This document shows positions 16,165-24,351 of a stretch of DNA of 42,677 nt, piece by piece; the stretch's first letter is position 1; the number at the start of each line of letters is the position of its first letter. Source of the DNA: Chloroflexota bacterium (GTDB lineage: Bacteria > Chloroflexota > Dehalococcoidia > Lucifugimonadales > Australimonadaceae); contig JAPPHT010000069.1 in the NCBI GenBank assembly GCA_028874795.1, positions 1 to 42,677 on the forward strand, read 5' to 3'. The notes beneath the pieces were generated by a model. It searched no databases and was not told the DNA's origin. It worked only from the letters and a program-made list of their open reading frames with translations. Position numbers and translations under genes: made by a program.

Positions 16165-16899
16165 ATGCAGGGAGTTATCCTCGCTGCCGGCGACGGCGGC
16201 AGACTCCGGCCATTCACGTACCGGACGCCGAAACCGCTGATCCGGCTCAGAGACCGTCCACTCATCTCATACCCGCTCGCGGCGATGGCGGAGGCGGGCA
16301 TACGTGAGGTCGGCATCGTGGTGGGCTATCGGGCGGAGCAGATCGTCGAGGGGCTCACAGGCTGGGCGCCGGACGGCGTGCGGCTGGAGTTCATCCACAA
16401 CCCGGAGTTCGAGGGCGGCAACGCGGTCTCCGTGCGCGCCGCGCGGGACTTCGCCGGCGGCGGACCCTTCATGCTGGCCATGAGCGACCACATCATCGAA
16501 CCGGGCGTGGCCATCCGGCTGACGACAGAATCCGAGCACCCCGCGCTGCTGGGCGTTGACTCGGCCGCGTCCATGGACAGCCAACTCAGCGACGCTACGA
16601 AGGTACTCGTGGACGGCGACGGCTTCCTCCGGCGCATCGGCAAGGGACTGCGGCGGTGGAATGCGGTGGACATCGGCGTGTTCGTGTTCCAACCGTCCAT
16701 CTTCGCCACCCTTGACCATCTCTACTCCCAGGAGGGCGCGGGGTTGGAGTTGAGCCGTGTGATGCAGCATCTGGCGAACAAGCCGTGCGGGGTTACGACG
16801 CGAGACATAGAGGGCCTCTTCTGGACCGACATCGACACCCTCGCAGACTTCAAGAGCGCTTATGACCACCTCAACTCTGCCGCAGACCTCCCCGTATGA
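16165..16899 (+). CDS. Sugar/inositol-phosphate nucleotidylyltransferase
   Basis: 244 residues. ATG 16165 is preferred over 16159 because AGGAG (16153-16157) is seven bases before it. The N-terminus MQGVILAAGDGGRLRPFT with downstream PKPL is the nucleotide-binding signature of NTP_transferase enzymes; MSDHII supplies the metal-binding Asp, and the second metal Asp is probably in FWTDIDT. It activates a phosphorylated sugar or polyol with an NTP, releasing pyrophosphate. The overlap of 38 bp with a CDP-alcohol phosphatidyltransferase mirrors the bifunctional CTP:inositol-1-phosphate cytidylyltransferase/DIPP-synthase proteins, so CTP plus a polyol phosphate is the favoured substrate pair. This is inference from pairing; a plain sugar-1-phosphate substrate remains possible. 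Confidence 0.85.
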   Translation: MQGVILAAGDGGRLRPFTYRTPKPLIRLRDRPLISYPLAAMAEAGIREVGIVVGYRAEQIVEGLTGWAPDGVRLEFIHNPEFEGGNAVSVRAARDFAGGGPFMLAMSDHIIEPGVAIRLTTESEHPALLGVDSAASMDSQLSDATKVLVDGDGFLRRIGKGLRRWNAVDIGVFVFQPSIFATLDHLYSQEGAGLELSRVMQHLANKPCGVTTRDIEGLFWTDIDTLADFKSAYDHLNSAADLPV

Positions 16900-17485
16900 C
16901 GGGCTGGTCTCGCGCCACCTGAACCGCCGCATCTCCCGGCCCATAGCCAAGCTGCTCGCGCACACGCCGGTCACACCGAACCAGGTAACCGTCTTCAGCC
17001 TGGGCATCGCGGTCGCTTCACTGGTCGCGTTCGCGACGGGCAATCCCATCGCAGGGGGACTGCTGGCGCAGGCAGGCTCCATCATCGACGGCGTGGACGG
17101 CGACCTTGCGCGATTCGCAGACAAGAGTTCGAAGTTCGGTTCGTTCTTCGATGCGGTCGTCGACCGCTTCTCGGACTCACTCGTCATGCTGGGGCTGACG
17201 GTCTGGGCGGCGAGCGGCGCGGAGACCATGTTGCCGTGGATCGCGGGGTTCGCCGCGCTCGCAGGTTCGTTCGCCGTCACCTACACGCGCGCACGGGTCG
17301 ACGAGTCCCGCCGGACGATGTTCGACAACGGCATTACGTCGCTGGCGTCGCGGGACGTGCGGCTGCTGCTCATCATGATAGGAGCAGTGGCGGGATACGG
17401 CGTCGAAACACTGCTTACGCTGGCCGTGCTCGCAATTGCGGTCGTACTGCTTCGCGTCGTCAGCGCTCGGCGCGTCCTGGAGTAG
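16862..17485 (+). CDS. CDP-alcohol phosphatidyltransferase
   Basis: 207 residues with several membrane helices (about 40-60, 105-130, 135-150, 165-200). The family signature is complete: D76-x2-D79-G80-x2-A83-R84-x8-G93-x3-D97-x3-D101, the metal- and CDP-binding site that moves a phospho-alcohol from a CDP carrier onto an acceptor hydroxyl. It starts inside the nucleotidylyltransferase gene in a different frame, so translation is coupled. Together the two chains (about 450 residues) equal in size and order the fused inositol-1-phosphate cytidylyltransferase/di-inositol-phosphate synthase enzymes known from hyperthermophiles. The product may be a phosphodiester solute or a polyol phospholipid head group. 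Confidence 0.92.
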   Translation: MTTSTLPQTSPYDGLVSRHLNRRISRPIAKLLAHTPVTPNQVTVFSLGIAVASLVAFATGNPIAGGLLAQAGSIIDGVDGDLARFADKSSKFGSFFDAVVDRFSDSLVMLGLTVWAASGAETMLPWIAGFAALAGSFAVTYTRARVDESRRTMFDNGITSLASRDVRLLLIMIGAVAGYGVETLLTLAVLAIAVVLLRVVSARRVLE

Positions 17486-17490
17486 CTTCC

Positions 17491-17685
17491 TTGTTGAACG
17501 GGTGCACGACCACGCGCATCTTCTGCCGGCCCAACTGCCCGCCGGGGCGGCGCACGAAGCCGGAGCACCGGGTCACCTTCGCCGACGAGCGCGAGGCCGC
17601 CGAGGCGGGATACCGTCCGTGCCGCGTCTGCACACCGCTGGACGGCCCGCCCGGCCCGTGGACCCGCAAACTCAGACGAGGCTAG
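17491..17685 (+). CDS. Orphan Ada-type metal-binding (methyl-acceptor) module
   Basis: A 64-residue protein from TTG 17491, supported by GGAG eight bases upstream and by starting five bases after the phosphatidyltransferase stop. TTTRIFCRPNCPPGRR and later GYRPCRVCTP supply the C-x3-C and C-x2-C pairs that bind zinc in the N-terminal domain of Ada, where the first Cys accepts methyl groups from DNA phosphotriesters. In Ada this is followed by an AraC-type helix-turn-helix; here the protein simply ends (LRRG), so no DNA-binding regulator domain is present. It may be a minimal methyl sensor, a repair module or a structural zinc protein. The stop codons of this gene and the convergent portal gene share a CTAG. 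Confidence 0.78.
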   Translation: MLNGCTTTRIFCRPNCPPGRRTKPEHRVTFADEREAAEAGYRPCRVCTPLDGPPGPWTRKLRRG

Positions 17686-18863
17686 GAAAGCCCTCTTTCC
17701 CGGCGTGCCTCTTCGGTCGTAAGGATGCCCGCCTGCACAAGGGCGACCTGACGCCTGGTGCGCTCACTCTCCGTCTCCGACAACGCCTCGACCTGCGTGA
17801 GGTCGAACGCCACGGACAAACCACGCGCCGATGGTCCCAGCCTCGGGAGCAGTCCTTCCGAGATCGCGCTCGCAAGGAACGTGAGCTCCGGCACCATCGT
17901 CTTTTCCCAGAACATGCGGCGCGCCTCCCGCACGTTGTTGAGCGTCGCGTGGCTGAAGTCCTCAAGCAACGGCAACGGTACGCCGTACACGCGAGCGACG
18001 CCTTCGAGGCTCCAGCGCAGCCCGGCGAGCCACTCCATGTCCCGCTGGCTCAGCCCGAGCCGTTGCACGTCCCAGCCGTCGCCGGCCACAAGCGGGCGAT
18101 TTGCCCGGCCTGGTCCGGCATGACGCGCCTCCAGCCTCGAGTAGAACTCCGCAATCTGCCCGTCTGTCACCGGCCCGCTCGCCCGGAAGACAAGGTCCTG
18201 CGGCTGGGCTCCGTTGCGGAAGAACTCTCGGTTGAACCGCAGTGCGTCCATTCCCATGTCCGCGGTAAGCCGCGCGGCGGCCATGGGCGCGAACCCTGCA
18301 AACTCCTCCAGTGGGTTGAAGTAGCGGAACCAGACCACCTCCTCCGGCAGCAGAGCGGTCTCCCGACCACGCTCCTCATAGACGAACCCCGCAACGTACC
18401 GCTCCGGGTCACGCACGACCCGCACGCGGTCCGGGCGCAGCACGCATATCTCGTCCGGCACCGCGGAGTGCGACGCGCTCGCGGAGCGTCCCAGGTACCA
18501 GAACGCTGCTCCCCACAGACAGAGGTACGTCTCCGTTGCGATGAGCAGGTCGCTCCTGCTCCACCAGCGGTTGACCGTATCCAGCAGCCGCTGCGTGGGA
18601 TGCTCCGGCCCCACCCATCGCCACGCACCTGAAGCGTCGATCTCCCGTACCTGCAGCGGAGGTCGCGAAGCCGCCTCCGCGCGGAGCTTGACCGCCGCAT
18701 ACACGTCCGCGCTCCGCGCGTAGTATTCGCCGTAAGCGGACGACTGCCACTCCTGGCCGACGCCCCTGTCCGGCAAAAGCGCGCGCATAGCCGCAGCCAG
18801 GGGAGCGTTCGCACGCCGCAACGGCACGATTCCCTCCATCACTTCCCGCAACAATCCAAGCAT
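17682..18863 (-). CDS. Phage portal protein (HK97-like), isolated
   Basis: 393 residues from ATG 18863, which has AGGAGGCAGG directly upstream; the frame stays open to 18962 but that stretch crosses a terminator hairpin. The protein follows the HK97 portal plan: an N-terminal WQSSAYGEYYARSADVYAAVKL segment, the YLCLWGAAFWYLGR region, VWFRYFNP, and the clip/stem region with WLAGLRWSLEGVARVYGVPLPLLED, then a C-terminal TEEARRERGL tail. In phages it forms the dodecameric ring through which DNA is packaged. No terminase, protease, capsid or tail gene is nearby, and its composition matches the host. It is either a prophage relic still in an open frame, or a domesticated or gene-transfer-agent-type component. 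Confidence 0.85.
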   Translation of the reverse strand: MLGLLREVMEGIVPLRRANAPLAAAMRALLPDRGVGQEWQSSAYGEYYARSADVYAAVKLRAEAASRPPLQVREIDASGAWRWVGPEHPTQRLLDTVNRWWSRSDLLIATETYLCLWGAAFWYLGRSASASHSAVPDEICVLRPDRVRVVRDPERYVAGFVYEERGRETALLPEEVVWFRYFNPLEEFAGFAPMAAARLTADMGMDALRFNREFFRNGAQPQDLVFRASGPVTDGQIAEFYSRLEARHAGPGRANRPLVAGDGWDVQRLGLSQRDMEWLAGLRWSLEGVARVYGVPLPLLEDFSHATLNNVREARRMFWEKTMVPELTFLASAISEGLLPRLGPSARGLSVAFDLTQVEALSETESERTRRQVALVQAGILTTEEARRERGLS

Positions 18864-18915
18864 CTCCTGCCTCCTGTCTGTGGTGTCCGGCGGCGTCAGG
18901 TGCGAGAACGCGAAA

Positions 18916-18943
18916 GAGCCCCGGCCTTTCTGGACCGGGGCTC
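18916..18943 (-). terminator. Intrinsic terminator downstream of the RCC1-repeat lipoprotein
   Basis: GAGCCCCGG (18916-18924) pairs with CCGGGGCTC (18935-18943) with a 10-base loop. Read on the minus strand the stem is followed by TTTCG, a short T-run, and it lies about 80 bases after the lipoprotein stop at 19024, so it probably ends that transcript before the portal gene. Confidence 0.6.
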
Positions 18944-19023
18944 TCCCCGACGTATCGCTCACCGCTATGCCACCGCTCGTACCATGCTAGACAGCGAAGG
19001 CCCGAACGCGCAACGGGCGGATG

Positions 19024-20658
19024 TCACGAGGCCGGCTCTGCGGTCTCCACTCCCGTCCTCCCAACCGCGAAGCGCTCGCCTTCCGGCGGCGACGCCTGGC
19101 CGTAGGCATCGAGTCCCCAGCAGACCGCTGTGCCGTCCACCTTCAAAGCGCAGGTGTGCACTCCCCCGCTGCTGATCGCCGCGTACCGCGCGTCCGGGTC
19201 CGGCGGCGACGCCTGGCCCTGCGCGTCGCTGCCCCAGCAGACGGCCGCGCCGTCCGACCGGAGCGCGCAGGTATGCCTGACGCCGCTGCTGATGGCGCTG
19301 AAGTTTACGCCCTGCGGCGGCGACGCCTGGCCCATCTCATCGGAGCCCCAGCAGACAGCCGCGCCGTTGGTGTCGATGGCACAGGTGTGCAGTCCCCCCG
19401 CGCTGATGGACGTGAACGTTGCGCCTTCCGGCGGCGAGGTTTGTCCGTAGCGCGCGTCGCCCCAGCATATCGCGGTGCCGTCCCCGCGGATCGCGCACGT
19501 GTGCTGGCCGCCGCTGTCGATCAGGTCGAACAGTTGGTTCGGCGGCGGCATCGACCTCCGCAGGCCGTCCCAGTCGCTCGTTTCCCGGCCCACCGGCGTG
19601 GGGGTCGGCACCCCCGCAAGCTCCGGGCCGTCACTGCCCCAGCAGAAGGGCACACCGTCGCGGCGGAGGGCGCAGCTATGCAGCGTGCCGCTGTCGACGG
19701 ACACGAAGAGGTCACCGTAAGCACGGACGAGCGGCGTGGACTGTCCCTCGCTGTCGTCGCCCCAGCAGAGCAGGGTACGGTCCGGACGCAGGCCACACGT
19801 ATGGAAGCCACCTGCGCTGATGGACGTGAACAGCAGCTCCTCCGGTGGGAGCGGCTCGTCTTCCTCGTTCCGAAGCTTCTCCGGGGAGGACTGGTCATAG
19901 ACATCGCTGCCCCAGCAGACGACGGTCATGTCCGGGCGGAGCGCGCAGGTATGGTCGGTGCTGCTGCTCAGCATCGTCGGCTGGTTGCGCCAGGAGAATG
20001 TCGAGTCCCAGGGCGGCGGATCGCTTGCAGGCGATTCGAGCGTCCACGTGCCGCAGCCGAGCGACGTGACGACGGCTACGTCGGTGGGCAATATCGCGAC
20101 CCGCAGCACACCGCTGCTCGCGGAGCCGGAGCCGAGAATCTCCCCGGGACGGGAACGGATGTTGGACGCTCGGAGCCATTCGCAGTGTGCGGATAGTTCC
20201 GGGCTCACGTAGATGCCGGGCACGATATCGACGTTCACCCGCCACCTCCCGGACCTGAACGAGGTCCAAGGCTTGGGGATGGGCGTGGGGGTGATGGTGG
20301 GGGTTGCTGTTGGAACAGGCGTCCGCGTTGGCGTAGCGGTTGGTGGTACGGGGGTAGGCGCCGCAGTGGGCACAGGTGTGCGGGTGGGAGTCGGCCTCGG
20401 CGTGGGGGTTGGAGTCGGGATCGGAGTCGCGGTGGGGGTCGCGGTCGGCGTGGGGGTTGGAGTCGGGGTGGGAGCTGCACGAGTCGGCGTGGGCTCCGGC
20501 GTGTCCGTTGGCAGCGGGACCGGCGTTGGATCCGGCGCGACGCACGCCGTGGAGGCGAGAAGCCAGGCACATACGCACGCCAACAGGGCACGCGAGAACG
20601 AGCGCCACGAAGAGATGCCCGCAAGGCGGACGGCAGGGAGGGTGCGTAAGAGCGACAT
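19024..20658 (-). CDS. RCC1-repeat lipoprotein with Pro-Thr tether
   Basis: 544 residues. An N-terminal signal ends in LLASTAC, a lipobox with Cys about residue 39. A (PT)n linker covers roughly residues 45-130. Next comes a 70-residue domain ([17 protein letters not shown]...CEWLRAS...GCGTWTL) resembling a small beta domain common in secreted actinobacterial and Chloroflexota lipoproteins. The C-terminal half has seven RCC1-like units of the form SGGxHTCALxxDGxAVCWGxDxxGQxSPP, enough for a complete seven-bladed propeller. The paired Cys in each blade (HTCA and VCWG) suggests disulphides, fitting an extracytoplasmic location. A surface binding role is likely; the ligand is unknown. The start has only a weak ribosome site. 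Confidence 0.88.
20276..20527 (-). repeat. GC-rich microsatellite encoding a (PT)n linker
   Basis: Imperfect GTGGGG/GTTGGA/GTCGGA-type hexamers on the plus strand encode Pro-Thr repeats of the RCC1 lipoprotein on the minus strand. It resembles the linker DNA at 2128-2297 and is a hotspot for slippage or recombination between the two genes. Confidence 0.75.
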
Positions 20659-20814: not shown

Positions 20815-23800
20815 TTGAGTCTCACAGGACTGCTCGGTCCGCTGGGGCGGGCGTCGGCTTACCGGCGCACTGTTGCATCGATGGCCGCGGGCGGCGCACA
20901 TGCCGTCGTCGCGCCGGACGCGGCCAAGCCGCTGGTGATCGCCGGTCTGTGGCGCGACCTCCGGCGCCCGCTGCTCGTGCTCTGCCCCCACCCGGACGAC
21001 GCGCGCCGACTGTTCGACCAGCTCGAGGCGTACTGCGGCGAGGGCGCGCCCCTGCTGCACTTCGCGGAGGCAGAGGTGCTGCCGTACGAGCGGCTCTCCG
21101 TCGAGGCCGGCACGATGCACGAGCGGATCCGCGCGCTCGGAGCCCTGCGCGAGAACGAAGGGCCTCCGCCGCTGATCATCGCCTCGGTCACGGGGGTCCT
21201 GCAGAAGACACTTCCGCCCGCGGTGCTGCAGCAGACGGCGCATGCGATAGTGCGCGGGCAGCGCCTGGCCGTGGAGTCCGTCCTCACCCAATGGGCGCGG
21301 ATGGGGTACACCACAAGTCCGCTGGTAGATCATCCCGGCACGGCGGCGCGGCGCGGCGGCATCGTGGACGTCTACGGGCCCGGCCACGACTCCCCCGTGC
21401 GGATCGATCTCTGGGGCGACGAGATCGACTCGATCCGAGCGTTTGATGCGAACTCGCAGCGCTCAGGCGAACATCTGGATTCGGTTACGATGCTTCCAGC
21501 GGGCGAGGCGCTCCCGGCCCTTGCAGACCACGTCCGAATCGACGAACTCGTTCGCTCGCTGGACTTCGCCAACACGGGCACGTCCGAACGCGACCGCATC
21601 CAGGACGAACTCGCAGACCTGCTCTCCGGGCTGTCGCTGGACAACGCCTCGTTCTACGCAGGCTTCCTGCTGCAACACACGCTGCTCGACCACCTGCCGG
21701 ACGACATCGTCGTGATCGTGAACGAGCCCGCCGAGGCCGACGAGGCAGCGCGGCACGTGGAGGGCGGCGCGGAGAAACTGCGTCTCGCCAAAGAAGAGCG
21801 CGGCGTTCTGCCGATGGGATTCCCCGCGCCGCTCGCTGACTGGGACAGCGTGTCACGAGCGCTCGAGTCCCTCCCCTGCCGGTTGGAGCTGAGCCGCTAC
21901 CACCAGGCTGAGACCGGCGGGCCAGCCTTGACCCTGCCGTTCGATGCCGCGCCGTCCTACCACGGCGGCATCGACGCCCTCGCCGAAGCAGTGCAGGCGG
22001 GGCACCGCGGCGCGGTCGTAATCGCGACGCAGCACTCACAGCGGCTGCGGGAACTGCTCGCCGAGGCGGACGTGGGCGCGGCGGAGGAGCGGACGCTGGA
22101 CGCCGCGCCGGAGCAGCCCGTCACCGTCGTACACACCACCATTGCTGGCGGATGGACGCTCTCGGCGGACGAGGGTGGCGAGCCGCTCGTGACGCTGCTC
22201 TCCGACGCGGAGGTGTTCGGCGCGCGGAAGCAGCGCGTCACGCGAGCGCGGCGGCACGCGCAACGATTCCAGGCAACCACCGTCGAGGAGTTGACGCCCG
22301 GGGCGTACGTCGTGCACGTCGACCACGGCGTCGGACGCTTCGCAGGCACGGGTTCGCGGACGGAAGATGCGGATGCGCCAGCAGGACGAGAGTACCTCAT
22401 CCTTGAGTACGCCGGCGGCGACCGCCTGTACGTGCCAATGGAGCACCTCGCGAGGCTGTCTCCTTACGCCGGAGGAGAGGAGAAGCCACCGTCGCTGACC
22501 AGCCTGGGCGGGCAGGAGTGGACGCGGGCAGTCTCCCGGGCGCGCGAGTCCACCAAGCGGCTCGCCATCGACCTGCTGGCGCTGTACGCGCGTCGCGAGT
22601 CCGCCGACGGTTTCCCGCACGGAAGCGACACGCCCTGGCAACGGGAGATGGAGGACGCGTTCCCATTCGTGGAGACACCGGACCAGCAGCGCGCCATAGA
22701 CGATGTGAAAGAGGACATGGAAATCGCGCGTCCGATGGACCGCCTGGTCTGTGGCGACGTGGGCTATGGCAAGACGGAGGTAGCGCTGCGGGCGGCGTTC
22801 AAGGCGGTGATGAGCGGGAAACAAGCGGCGGTGCTCGTGCCCACAACCGTACTGGCCCAGCAGCACCACCGCAGCTTCGTGGAGCGCCTGGGTCCCTTCC
22901 CCGCGCGGGTGGAGATGCTCAGCCGGTTCCGTACTTCGAAGGAGCAGGACGAGGTCGTGCGCGGTCTGAAGAGCGGCGAGGTGGACGTGGTCATCGGCAC
23001 CCACCGGCTCGTGCAGAAAGACGTGGACTTCAAGGACCTCGGCATCGTCATTATCGATGAAGAACACCGCTTCGGAGTGGCACACAAGGAGCGCCTGCGC
23101 GAACTCCGCACCGAAGTGGACGTGCTCACGCTGACCGCAACTCCCATCCCGCGCACGCTTCACATGGCGATGTCCGGCATACGGGACATCTCAACCATCG
23201 AGACCCCGCCTGAGGAGCGTCTGCCCATCAAGACGTACCTCGCTGAGCGCTCGGACGACCTCGTGAAGGAAGCGGTGCAGCGAGAGCTGGACCGAGGCGG
23301 CCAGGTCTTTTTCCTGCACAACCGGGTGAAGAGCATCCATCTTGCCGCGGCACACCTGCGTGACCTTGTGCCGGAGGCGCGGATCCTGATCGGCCACGGA
23401 CAGATGCCGGAGGAGGAACTATCCGAGATCATGGAGCGCTTCGCCGACGGCGAAGGGGATGTGCTAGTCTGCACTACCATCATCGAGTCCGGCCTGGACA
23501 TCCCGAACGTCAACACCCTGGTTGTCGACCACGCGGACCGCTTCGGGCTGGCGCAGCTCTACCAGTTGCGCGGCCGCATCGGGCGGCGCTCGCAGCGCGC
23601 CTACGCCTACCTCCTCGTCGAGCGTGGGCGGCGGCTGACCGACACAGCGAGGCGCAGGCTGGAAACCATCATGGCAGCGACAGAGCTGGGCGCCGGATTT
23701 CGCATCGCGATGAAGGACCTGGAGATACGGGGCGCGGGCAACCTGCTCGGCGGCGAGCAGAGCGGACACATACAAGCCGTAGGGTTCGATCTCTACACGC

Positions 23801-24351
23801 GGTTGCTTTCAGAGGCGGTCGCCGAGTTGCGGGCGATGCGCGAGGGCGGGCCGCCGCCTTCACCGCCGACGCCCGACCCGGTGATCGACCTCGGCCTGCC
23901 CGCCTCGATCCCCGAGGATCTCGTCCCTCATATGCCGGCGCGGATGGCGATGTACCAGCGGCTCGCACGCGCCACGACCGTCGCCGACGTCGACGACCTG
24001 CCGCGCGAGTTCATGGAGCGCTTCGGGCACCGCTTGCCGGACGAGTTGCACAACCTGCTATTCGGCGTGCGCGTGCGGGTGCTTGCGAGAGCCGCGGAAG
24101 TGGAGTCGGTAACGCGCCGCGCCGACCGCGTCACGCTGAAGCTGGTGGACGAGGCGGGAGGAGCGCGCACCGCGCTGGAACGCGCGCTCGGACATGGGAC
24201 GACGGTGGGAAACCAGCAGGTGCACGTTCCGCTTGCGCAGCAAGAGATGCCCTGGGGACAAGCACTGCTGGAAGTGCTGGAGGAGCTTGCCGCGTTCCGA
24301 GAGCGGACTGGCGAGTTGAGCGCGCTGCTCGCTCAGGCATCGGCGCGGTAG
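20815..24351 (+). CDS. mfd: Transcription-repair coupling factor
   Basis: 1178 residues, the normal length. It releases RNA polymerase stalled at DNA lesions and recruits UvrA. The TTG start has GGAGGAG six bases upstream. Domains in order: UvrB-like N-terminal region (VLCPHPDDARRLFDQLEAY, EVLPYERLSVE), the RNA-polymerase interaction domain (YVVHVDHGVGRFAG, LEYAGGDRLYVPMEHL), then the RecG-like translocase with Walker A GDVGYGKT (residues 647-654), DEEH box DEEHRFGV (from 748), the TATPIPRTLHMAMSGIRD motif III region, and motif VI DRFGLAQLYQLRGRIGRRSQ. The C-terminal TRCF domain ends the protein. It appears monocistronic, divergent from the RCC1 lipoprotein. Confidence 0.98.
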   Translation: MSLTGLLGPLGRASAYRRTVASMAAGGAHAVVAPDAAKPLVIAGLWRDLRRPLLVLCPHPDDARRLFDQLEAYCGEGAPLLHFAEAEVLPYERLSVEAGTMHERIRALGALRENEGPPPLIIASVTGVLQKTLPPAVLQQTAHAIVRGQRLAVESVLTQWARMGYTTSPLVDHPGTAARRGGIVDVYGPGHDSPVRIDLWGDEIDSIRAFDANSQRSGEHLDSVTMLPAGEALPALADHVRIDELVRSLDFANTGTSERDRIQDELADLLSGLSLDNASFYAGFLLQHTLLDHLPDDIVVIVNEPAEADEAARHVEGGAEKLRLAKEERGVLPMGFPAPLADWDSVSRALESLPCRLELSRYHQAETGGPALTLPFDAAPSYHGGIDALAEAVQAGHRGAVVIATQHSQRLRELLAEADVGAAEERTLDAAPEQPVTVVHTTIAGGWTLSADEGGEPLVTLLSDAEVFGARKQRVTRARRHAQRFQATTVEELTPGAYVVHVDHGVGRFAGTGSRTEDADAPAGREYLILEYAGGDRLYVPMEHLARLSPYAGGEEKPPSLTSLGGQEWTRAVSRARESTKRLAIDLLALYARRESADGFPHGSDTPWQREMEDAFPFVETPDQQRAIDDVKEDMEIARPMDRLVCGDVGYGKTEVALRAAFKAVMSGKQAAVLVPTTVLAQQHHRSFVERLGPFPARVEMLSRFRTSKEQDEVVRGLKSGEVDVVIGTHRLVQKDVDFKDLGIVIIDEEHRFGVAHKERLRELRTEVDVLTLTATPIPRTLHMAMSGIRDISTIETPPEERLPIKTYLAERSDDLVKEAVQRELDRGGQVFFLHNRVKSIHLAAAHLRDLVPEARILIGHGQMPEEELSEIMERFADGEGDVLVCTTIIESGLDIPNVNTLVVDHADRFGLAQLYQLRGRIGRRSQRAYAYLLVERGRRLTDTARRRLETIMAATELGAGFRIAMKDLEIRGAGNLLGGEQSGHIQAVGFDLYTRLLSEAVAELRAMREGGPPPSPPTPDPVIDLGLPASIPEDLVPHMPARMAMYQRLARATTVADVDDLPREFMERFGHRLPDELHNLLFGVRVRVLARAAEVESVTRRADRVTLKLVDEAGGARTALERALGHGTTVGNQQVHVPLAQQEMPWGQALLEVLEELAAFRERTGELSALLAQASAR

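Follow-up and report, generated by a model that had tools for sequence, protein, structure and literature searches.

We start from the closest described systems, the gene transfer agents (GTAs), which are formally recognised primarily in Alphaproteobacteria and Brachyspira according to the cited part of PMC12946183. RcGTA is encoded by at least 24 genes at five loci and keeps 17 head-tail genes together (cited passages of PMC11409702), whereas in the genus under study the portal, capsid and adaptor genes lie apart. A small set (terminase, portal, capsid, protease and two more genes) is present in all Orientia tsutsugamushi genomes studied, where it is scattered at several places and its activity is untested, as stated in the cited passages of PMC10732058. 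For the Caulobacter GTA (CcGTA), the passages drawn from PMC11150451 describe a GTA regulator that overcomes a terminator-type structure placed after the promoter, and one regulator that acts on about 18 GTA-related promoters. Our literature search, judged mostly without full texts, returned no GTA described for SAR202, Chloroflexota, Dehalococcoidia or Chloroflexi; searches on SAR202 terminases or prophages and on dispersed GTA portals or terminases likewise returned, mostly without full texts, nothing describing such a set. The GTA mention in the cited part of PMC12507015 is the title of a reference.

The locus considered here resembles RcGTA in that the genes lie in the host chromosome at several loci, and in that the portal profile finds the RcGTA portal Rcc01684 as its top hit among PDB sequences (E 8.9e-42), a likeness that holds also for other HK97-type portals. 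It differs in that the TerL family profile, with rows from relatives, matches among PDB sequences the "Gene 2 protein" terminases, which we take to be Sf6 gp2, and not the terminase of RcGTA; Terminase_6 was absent from the one family member scanned with Pfam. The RcGTA capsid is not among the PDB matches of the capsid profile, which finds other phage heads. Judged on PDB sequences, TerL and capsid thus do not have their closest relatives in the RcGTA family. The RcGTA particle is tailed, in contrast to a genus in which profiles found no tail genes. The likeness to the Orientia tsutsugamushi set, drawn by description, is that of a small, conserved and dispersed GTA gene set; the phylum is another, and no promoter-plus-leader pattern is mentioned in the cited passages of PMC10732058. 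With CcGTA the shared arrangement is a promoter and then a terminator-type hairpin, known here from sequence alone; the CcGTA terminator stands after the first gene of one cluster (cited part of PMC11150451), whereas the hairpins here stand in the leaders of separate operons.

Among 10 phage records listed per protein, the highest identities are 28% for the portal and 23% for the capsid. Of three matches on viral contigs, the best is on an IMG/VR contig; its portal is 46% identical and sits, by eye, among glycosyltransferase-like and other genes; gene clustering found no match to our capsid there (17.6 of 26.2 kb covered). Portals 70-92% identical occur at eight named loci in MAGs labelled Chloroflexi, Chloroflexota, SAR202 cluster or Dehalococcoidia.

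The portal gene among host genes

The window, by which we mean the whole stretch of DNA analysed (42,677 nt), carries the features collected in Table 1.

Table 1. Portal gene, its leader features and flanking genes (window coordinates)
Feature	Position	Strand	Basis
Portal protein gene, HK97/RcGTA-type, 393 aa, intact	17682..18863	-	Pfam, PHROG and PDB profile matches
Ribosome binding site AGGAGG with spacer	18864..18875	-	sequence
Leader hairpin AGAGCCCCGG-loop-CCGGGGCTCT, then short T tract	18913..18944	-	sequence
-10-like hexamer TAGCAT (putative)	18984..18989	-	sequence; inferred
Promoter-type element TGACATCCGCCCGTTGCG, common to other virion loci of the same genome	19009..19026	-	sequence
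CDP-alcohol phosphatidyltransferase gene, host, flanking	16862..17485	+	Pfam
RCC1-repeat protein gene, host, flanking	19024..20658	-	Pfam

A sequence-only reading of this DNA had described a full-length portal gene with an excellent ribosome site and host-like composition, standing alone between host genes, and this description is confirmed. The Pfam Phage_portal profile matches the ORF at E 3.4e-59 over profile positions 2-320 of 321, the PHROG portal match reaches 1.4e-61, and the plus-strand frame of the same interval is broken by an internal stop; the earlier reading had named no strand. The ATG at 18863 has its AGGAGG at a spacing of 6 nt, and the GC content near the portal is 0.67-0.69, against 0.65-0.70 in adjacent segments. 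PF04860 matches only this portal in the whole genome (3.33 Mb, 90 contigs). A predicted portal structure from a 9-row alignment had a pLDDT of 44.5, too low for use, and was set aside.

The surrounding genes are those of the host: EF-G, a nucleotidyltransferase, the CDP-alcohol phosphatidyltransferase, the RCC1-repeat protein and a large ORF (20815-24351), which gives PHROG helicase matches and which, from its length and sequence, we take to be Mfd. None of the 10 proteins between 10016 and 26168 received a head, packaging or connector label in a PHROGs scan, and the sole "tail" label in that interval is a weak match (5e-4) of the RCC1-repeat protein. The contiguous phage genome of an HK97-type prophage is not what is found, the other virion genes being on other contigs.

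Absence from close relatives would have spoken against domestication, and the opposite is observed. The portal is present in 20 of 59 genomes of relatives and, once each, in all six of its own genus, the five congeners' portals being 86-92% identical to that of the genome studied (G000). The order RCC1 gene, portal, nucleotidyltransferase, EF-G, a synteny that the earlier reading had proposed to look for, is kept in five of the six; the G001 locus is without the RCC1 neighbour and has three additional genes on the opposite side, with the EF-G, nucleotidyltransferase and CDP-alcohol transferase genes still nearby.

Partner head genes, their clustered forms and tail genes

The same reading had suggested a search for terminase, capsid and protease genes elsewhere in the genome, and all of them were found, together with an adaptor. 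Using profiles built from relatives and then searched against the genus genomes, we find TerL, capsid, protease and adaptor in each of the six, away from the portal. In G000 the protease, an 82-aa gene and the capsid lie on contig C4 (about 55.9-58.4 kb), a 153-aa gene, the adaptor and a 95-aa gene on C17 (4.3-5.9 kb), and TerL on C79, C41 and C84, the last copy being split into two overlapping frames. Each genus genome has one protease locus, one full capsid locus and one adaptor locus; G001 has an extra short capsid fragment about 3 kb from its protease-capsid locus, and the capsid start of G003 is broken up. The neighbours of the protease-capsid locus are identical in five of the six genomes, with one of them shared by G001. 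In G000, G003 and G005 the adaptor locus is flanked on one side by lysS, greA and coaD (names assigned by eye); in G002 and G004 the contigs end there, and G001 differs.

TerL matches number eight in the single-contig G001, six in G005, and three, nine and five in G002, G003 and G004, where several are fragments. Among the pairs listed, seven of the eight G001 copies show about 85-90% DNA identity across roughly 2 kb, and the conserved block corresponds roughly to the gene itself; short dispersed repeats surround the copies. TerL is the only virion gene clearly multiplied, its copies lying among host genes (L121-L128 in G001, L116-L118 in G000, L184-L189 in G025). A terminase-small-subunit-like gene (phrog_2538, 6.7e-7), itself with a promoter-type element, lies near a G005 TerL copy (L130:7343-7744). 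A different TerL type, Pfam Terminase_6, stands near the portal in G020 and G022 and was missed by profile A1.

Clear phage genes just outside the portal in related contigs had also been named as telling against domestication. Such genes do occur in sister genera, and we read them as the clustered form of the set, given that in the own genus these genes are spread over several loci. One contig of the sister-genus genome G012 carries TerL, a 67-aa membrane protein, portal, protease and capsid; the cluster of G006 spans TerL to protease and that of G015 capsid to adaptor. In G050, a relative at order level, a stretch of 9 kb takes in TerL, portal, protease, capsid, adaptor and tail terminator, and in a class-wide sample the distance from portal to capsid is at most about 10 kb in some genomes. 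Protease and capsid are also unlinked from the portal in G025, G036, G044, G047 and G054, other order-level relatives, so that the scattering is old or has been repeated.

In both G001 and G005 a small membrane protein gene is grouped with genes for an IrrE-type protease (Pfam Peptidase_M78) and an XRE-type repressor (identified by eye in G005), and the repressor and IrrE-type protease also lie beside the gene cluster of G006. They are a possible regulator module of the set (L272:12022-13543, L126:10014-11281, L053/L030).

Tail terminator, major tail protein and tail-tip-like protein were found in seven, six and five of the 59 genomes, and by profile search in none of the six of the own genus or the 16 of the own family. 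Within the reach of the tail profiles the own genus has head genes only, and strong divergence could hide tails. Major tail and tip genes lie away from the capsid in G025, G044, G047, G050 and G054; those of G047 are beyond the ATP synthase operon, and the G044 tail-tip match contains a stop. PDB searches with the major tail, tail terminator and tail-tip profiles returned nothing useful, the tail-tip profile giving weak levanase matches (0.0015 and worse). To our knowledge all known GTAs are tailed, and the finding of no tail genes in the own genus therefore weakens a GTA reading.

A promoter-type element and leader hairpins

We turn to the leaders of these operons. An element TGACAnnnGCnnGTTnCG lies upstream of the portal, protease and adaptor operons, with a TAnnnT hexamer 18-19 nt beyond it at the protease, at the adaptor and at the G000 portal; the hexamer was not seen at the G004 and G005 portals or at the G005 TerL genes. 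A matrix trained on the six portal sites alone was scored on 507 upstream regions, 459 of them controls, several of the top-scoring controls being possibly related genes that are still counted as controls. Ten non-portal leaders were scored, the adaptor leaders of G001 and G003 being left out. Eight of these ten protease and adaptor leaders are outscored by just 3 to 29 of the 459 controls: 3 for the G001 protease, 6 each for the G000, G004 and G005 adaptors and the G005 protease, 8 for the G004 protease, 24 for the G000 protease and 29 for the G002 protease. The matrix misses the G002 adaptor (120 controls above) and the G003 protease (144 above), which may be due to gene starts or contig ends. 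With the training reversed, each portal of the six is outscored by 2 controls. A matrix built from all sites gives the G001 TerL copies low scores, two of eight exceeding the 95% point of controls.

In 800 kb of G005 a score of 13 is found at 43 sites, against 25, 15 and 14 in Markov controls, and a score of 19 at 25 sites, against 0, 1 and 0. The element stands at all seven virion operon heads examined in G005 versus 18 of 739 other genes, a count that leaves out two TerL copies on contig C9 and omits L131, since L237 holds the same gene. The training of this matrix included G005's own portal, protease and adaptor leaders and excluded its four TerL heads, all four of which have the element (p 5.8e-7). 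In G000 it is found at six of six virion loci examined, the one at TerL on C41 being weak and 410 nt upstream.

As a marker of a GTA-only regulon the element was rejected: in the 800 kb of G005 it also precedes host genes or long leaders. Many of its sites are of this kind, and it is therefore a promoter class rather than a private signal. At element sites without a nearby gene, tRNA genes gave no explanation (none in 20 loci). A strong consensus, approximately TGACACCCGCCCCTTTCGCGGTCG-N-TACGCT, is seen before host genes with leaders of 130-460 nt, at 2493, 3649 and 24789 (plus) and 37475 (minus) in the window and many times in G005 (L233-L272); several of these host-gene leaders contain repeats such as CTATAGACnnnGTCTATAG or AATGTCCC.

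Hairpins resembling that of the portal leader are also present in the protease and adaptor operon leaders of G000. Under a strict terminator scan of these three leaders the protease passes, and the portal (5 T in 8) and the adaptor fail. In G005, a hairpin of at least 8 pairs with at least 4 T, a rule chosen after the first result table was known, lies between element and start in six of the seven virion leaders and in none of the 18 other element-bearing genes (p 4e-5); under a looser rule (7 pairs, any tail) the counts are 6/7 and 2/18 (p 0.001). By eye, G001 has no such hairpin ahead of its portal, protease or adaptor.

Selection, shared history and competing readings

The portal has a dN/dS of 0.085 (0.053-0.106; Nei-Gojobori, 15 pairs), and the check that the sequence-only reading had asked for thus places it equal to the housekeeping neighbours EF-G and Mfd (0.086 each), with 0.18 for the RCC1 gene. 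Its partners give 0.150 (capsid), 0.147 (protease) and 0.33 (adaptor). Counting a genome as positive even for a fragment or weak match (the G027 portal is 23% identical, and the G014 TerL is two fragments), all five head genes are found in 14 of the 59 genomes, none in 36 and some in nine. Portal and capsid are both present in 17, portal alone in three, capsid alone in two and neither in 37 (p 6.1e-10), or 9/3/1/27 by family (p 7.3e-6), and all ten gene pairs co-occur with p <=4.2e-8 by genome and <=8.1e-5 by family. Portal-bearing genomes have the larger median size (2.9 versus 1.9 Mb), which partly confounds the co-occurrence. At E 1e-40 the class-wide sample of 393 genomes has the portal in 22, the capsid in 14 and both in 13. 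Trees of the portal and of the capsid, each from 20 genomes, correlate with a Mantel r of 0.968 (p 1e-4). They share 10 of 17 splits, including every split with support 99-100 in either; the seven unshared in each have support up to 93 (portal, where three carry 90-93) and 76 (capsid). Though unlinked, portal and capsid have largely the same history.

The portal is probably part of a domesticated, vertically inherited virion-head set, GTA-like in kind, in SAR202-type Dehalococcoidia; SAR202 is a lineage abundant in the sea and associated with sponges. We favour a GTA-like system as the best explanation because conserved portal, TerL and protease genes, which would make sense only with DNA packaging, are combined with dispersal, selection and common history. 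The phage-type head genes are host-encoded and conserved in all six genus genomes, with purifying selection on portal, capsid, protease and adaptor, and they occupy separate portal, protease-capsid, adaptor and TerL loci. A decaying prophage, broken up by rearrangement so that the portal is a late survivor, would fit with the prophage-like clusters of relatives, with the tail genes not found in the own genus and with the split or fragmentary TerL matches, but it is improbable, because decay would not keep unlinked genes intact together: the same gene set is in six of six genomes with dN/dS values of 0.085-0.33, trees of unlinked genes are largely congruent, and the operons have a common leader architecture. 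The earlier preference for domestication or a dispersed GTA component over a decayed prophage is in this respect borne out by the partners found elsewhere, the presence in every genus genome and the portal's dN/dS.

We consider it rather unlikely that the capsid serves another use, as a tail-less DNA-packing particle (for killing, DNA storage or defence) or as a nanocompartment. Own genus and family do show head genes only, and there are several TerL copies against one full capsid gene and one portal gene; however, a plain nanocompartment would need no portal, TerL or protease, and some order-level relatives keep tail genes at further loci. An encapsulin would be a shell without portal or terminase, and here portal, TerL and protease co-occur with the capsid. 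The multiplied TerL copies, seven of eight alike in G001 among the pairs listed, could also point to a satellite or complete temperate phage that uses the scattered genes and is still self-mobile. This we hold to be very improbable: most genus genomes have the portal and the capsid at orthologous places among host genes, which is unexpected of a mobile genome, and there are no close phage relatives among the 10 phage records listed for each.

Returning to the GTA-like head set, a fuller form of this reading, which we put forward tentatively, is that SAR202-type Chloroflexota have an independent GTA lineage whose operons, separated in this genus, could be controlled jointly by leader hairpins and a promoter type that they share; the particle may lack a tail, and multiplying terminases would pack host DNA. 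Once the operons are on together, the portal would form a ring at one capsid vertex; TerL would dock on it and pump host chromosomal DNA into the HK97-type head, while the protease would mature the shell and the adaptor close the vertex. More speculatively, the leader hairpins might hold back expression of the operons pending a read-through factor, a role that GafZ has in the Caulobacter GTA, and the XRE repressor with the IrrE-type protease found beside the sister-genus cluster might time their release. If true, capsid-mediated DNA exchange reaches beyond the groups with formally recognised GTAs. The case also shows that a phage gene found alone among host genes may be more than a remnant. 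The dispersed set would also be a test of how a domesticated phage still works once its operon has been taken apart, since every gene then depends on a promoter and leader control of its own, and these can be read here.

Two further features of the surroundings are recorded. DNA methylase genes adjoin TerL, capsid or the clustered form (L123:5571-7397 and L114:18742-19578, by Pfam N6_N4_Mtase; L053:10680-12323, by eye). In G020 (L141:11010-11955), the real adaptor gene is immediately preceded by two tandem chimeric ORFs that begin as adaptor and end as capsid, and they look like a recombination scar.
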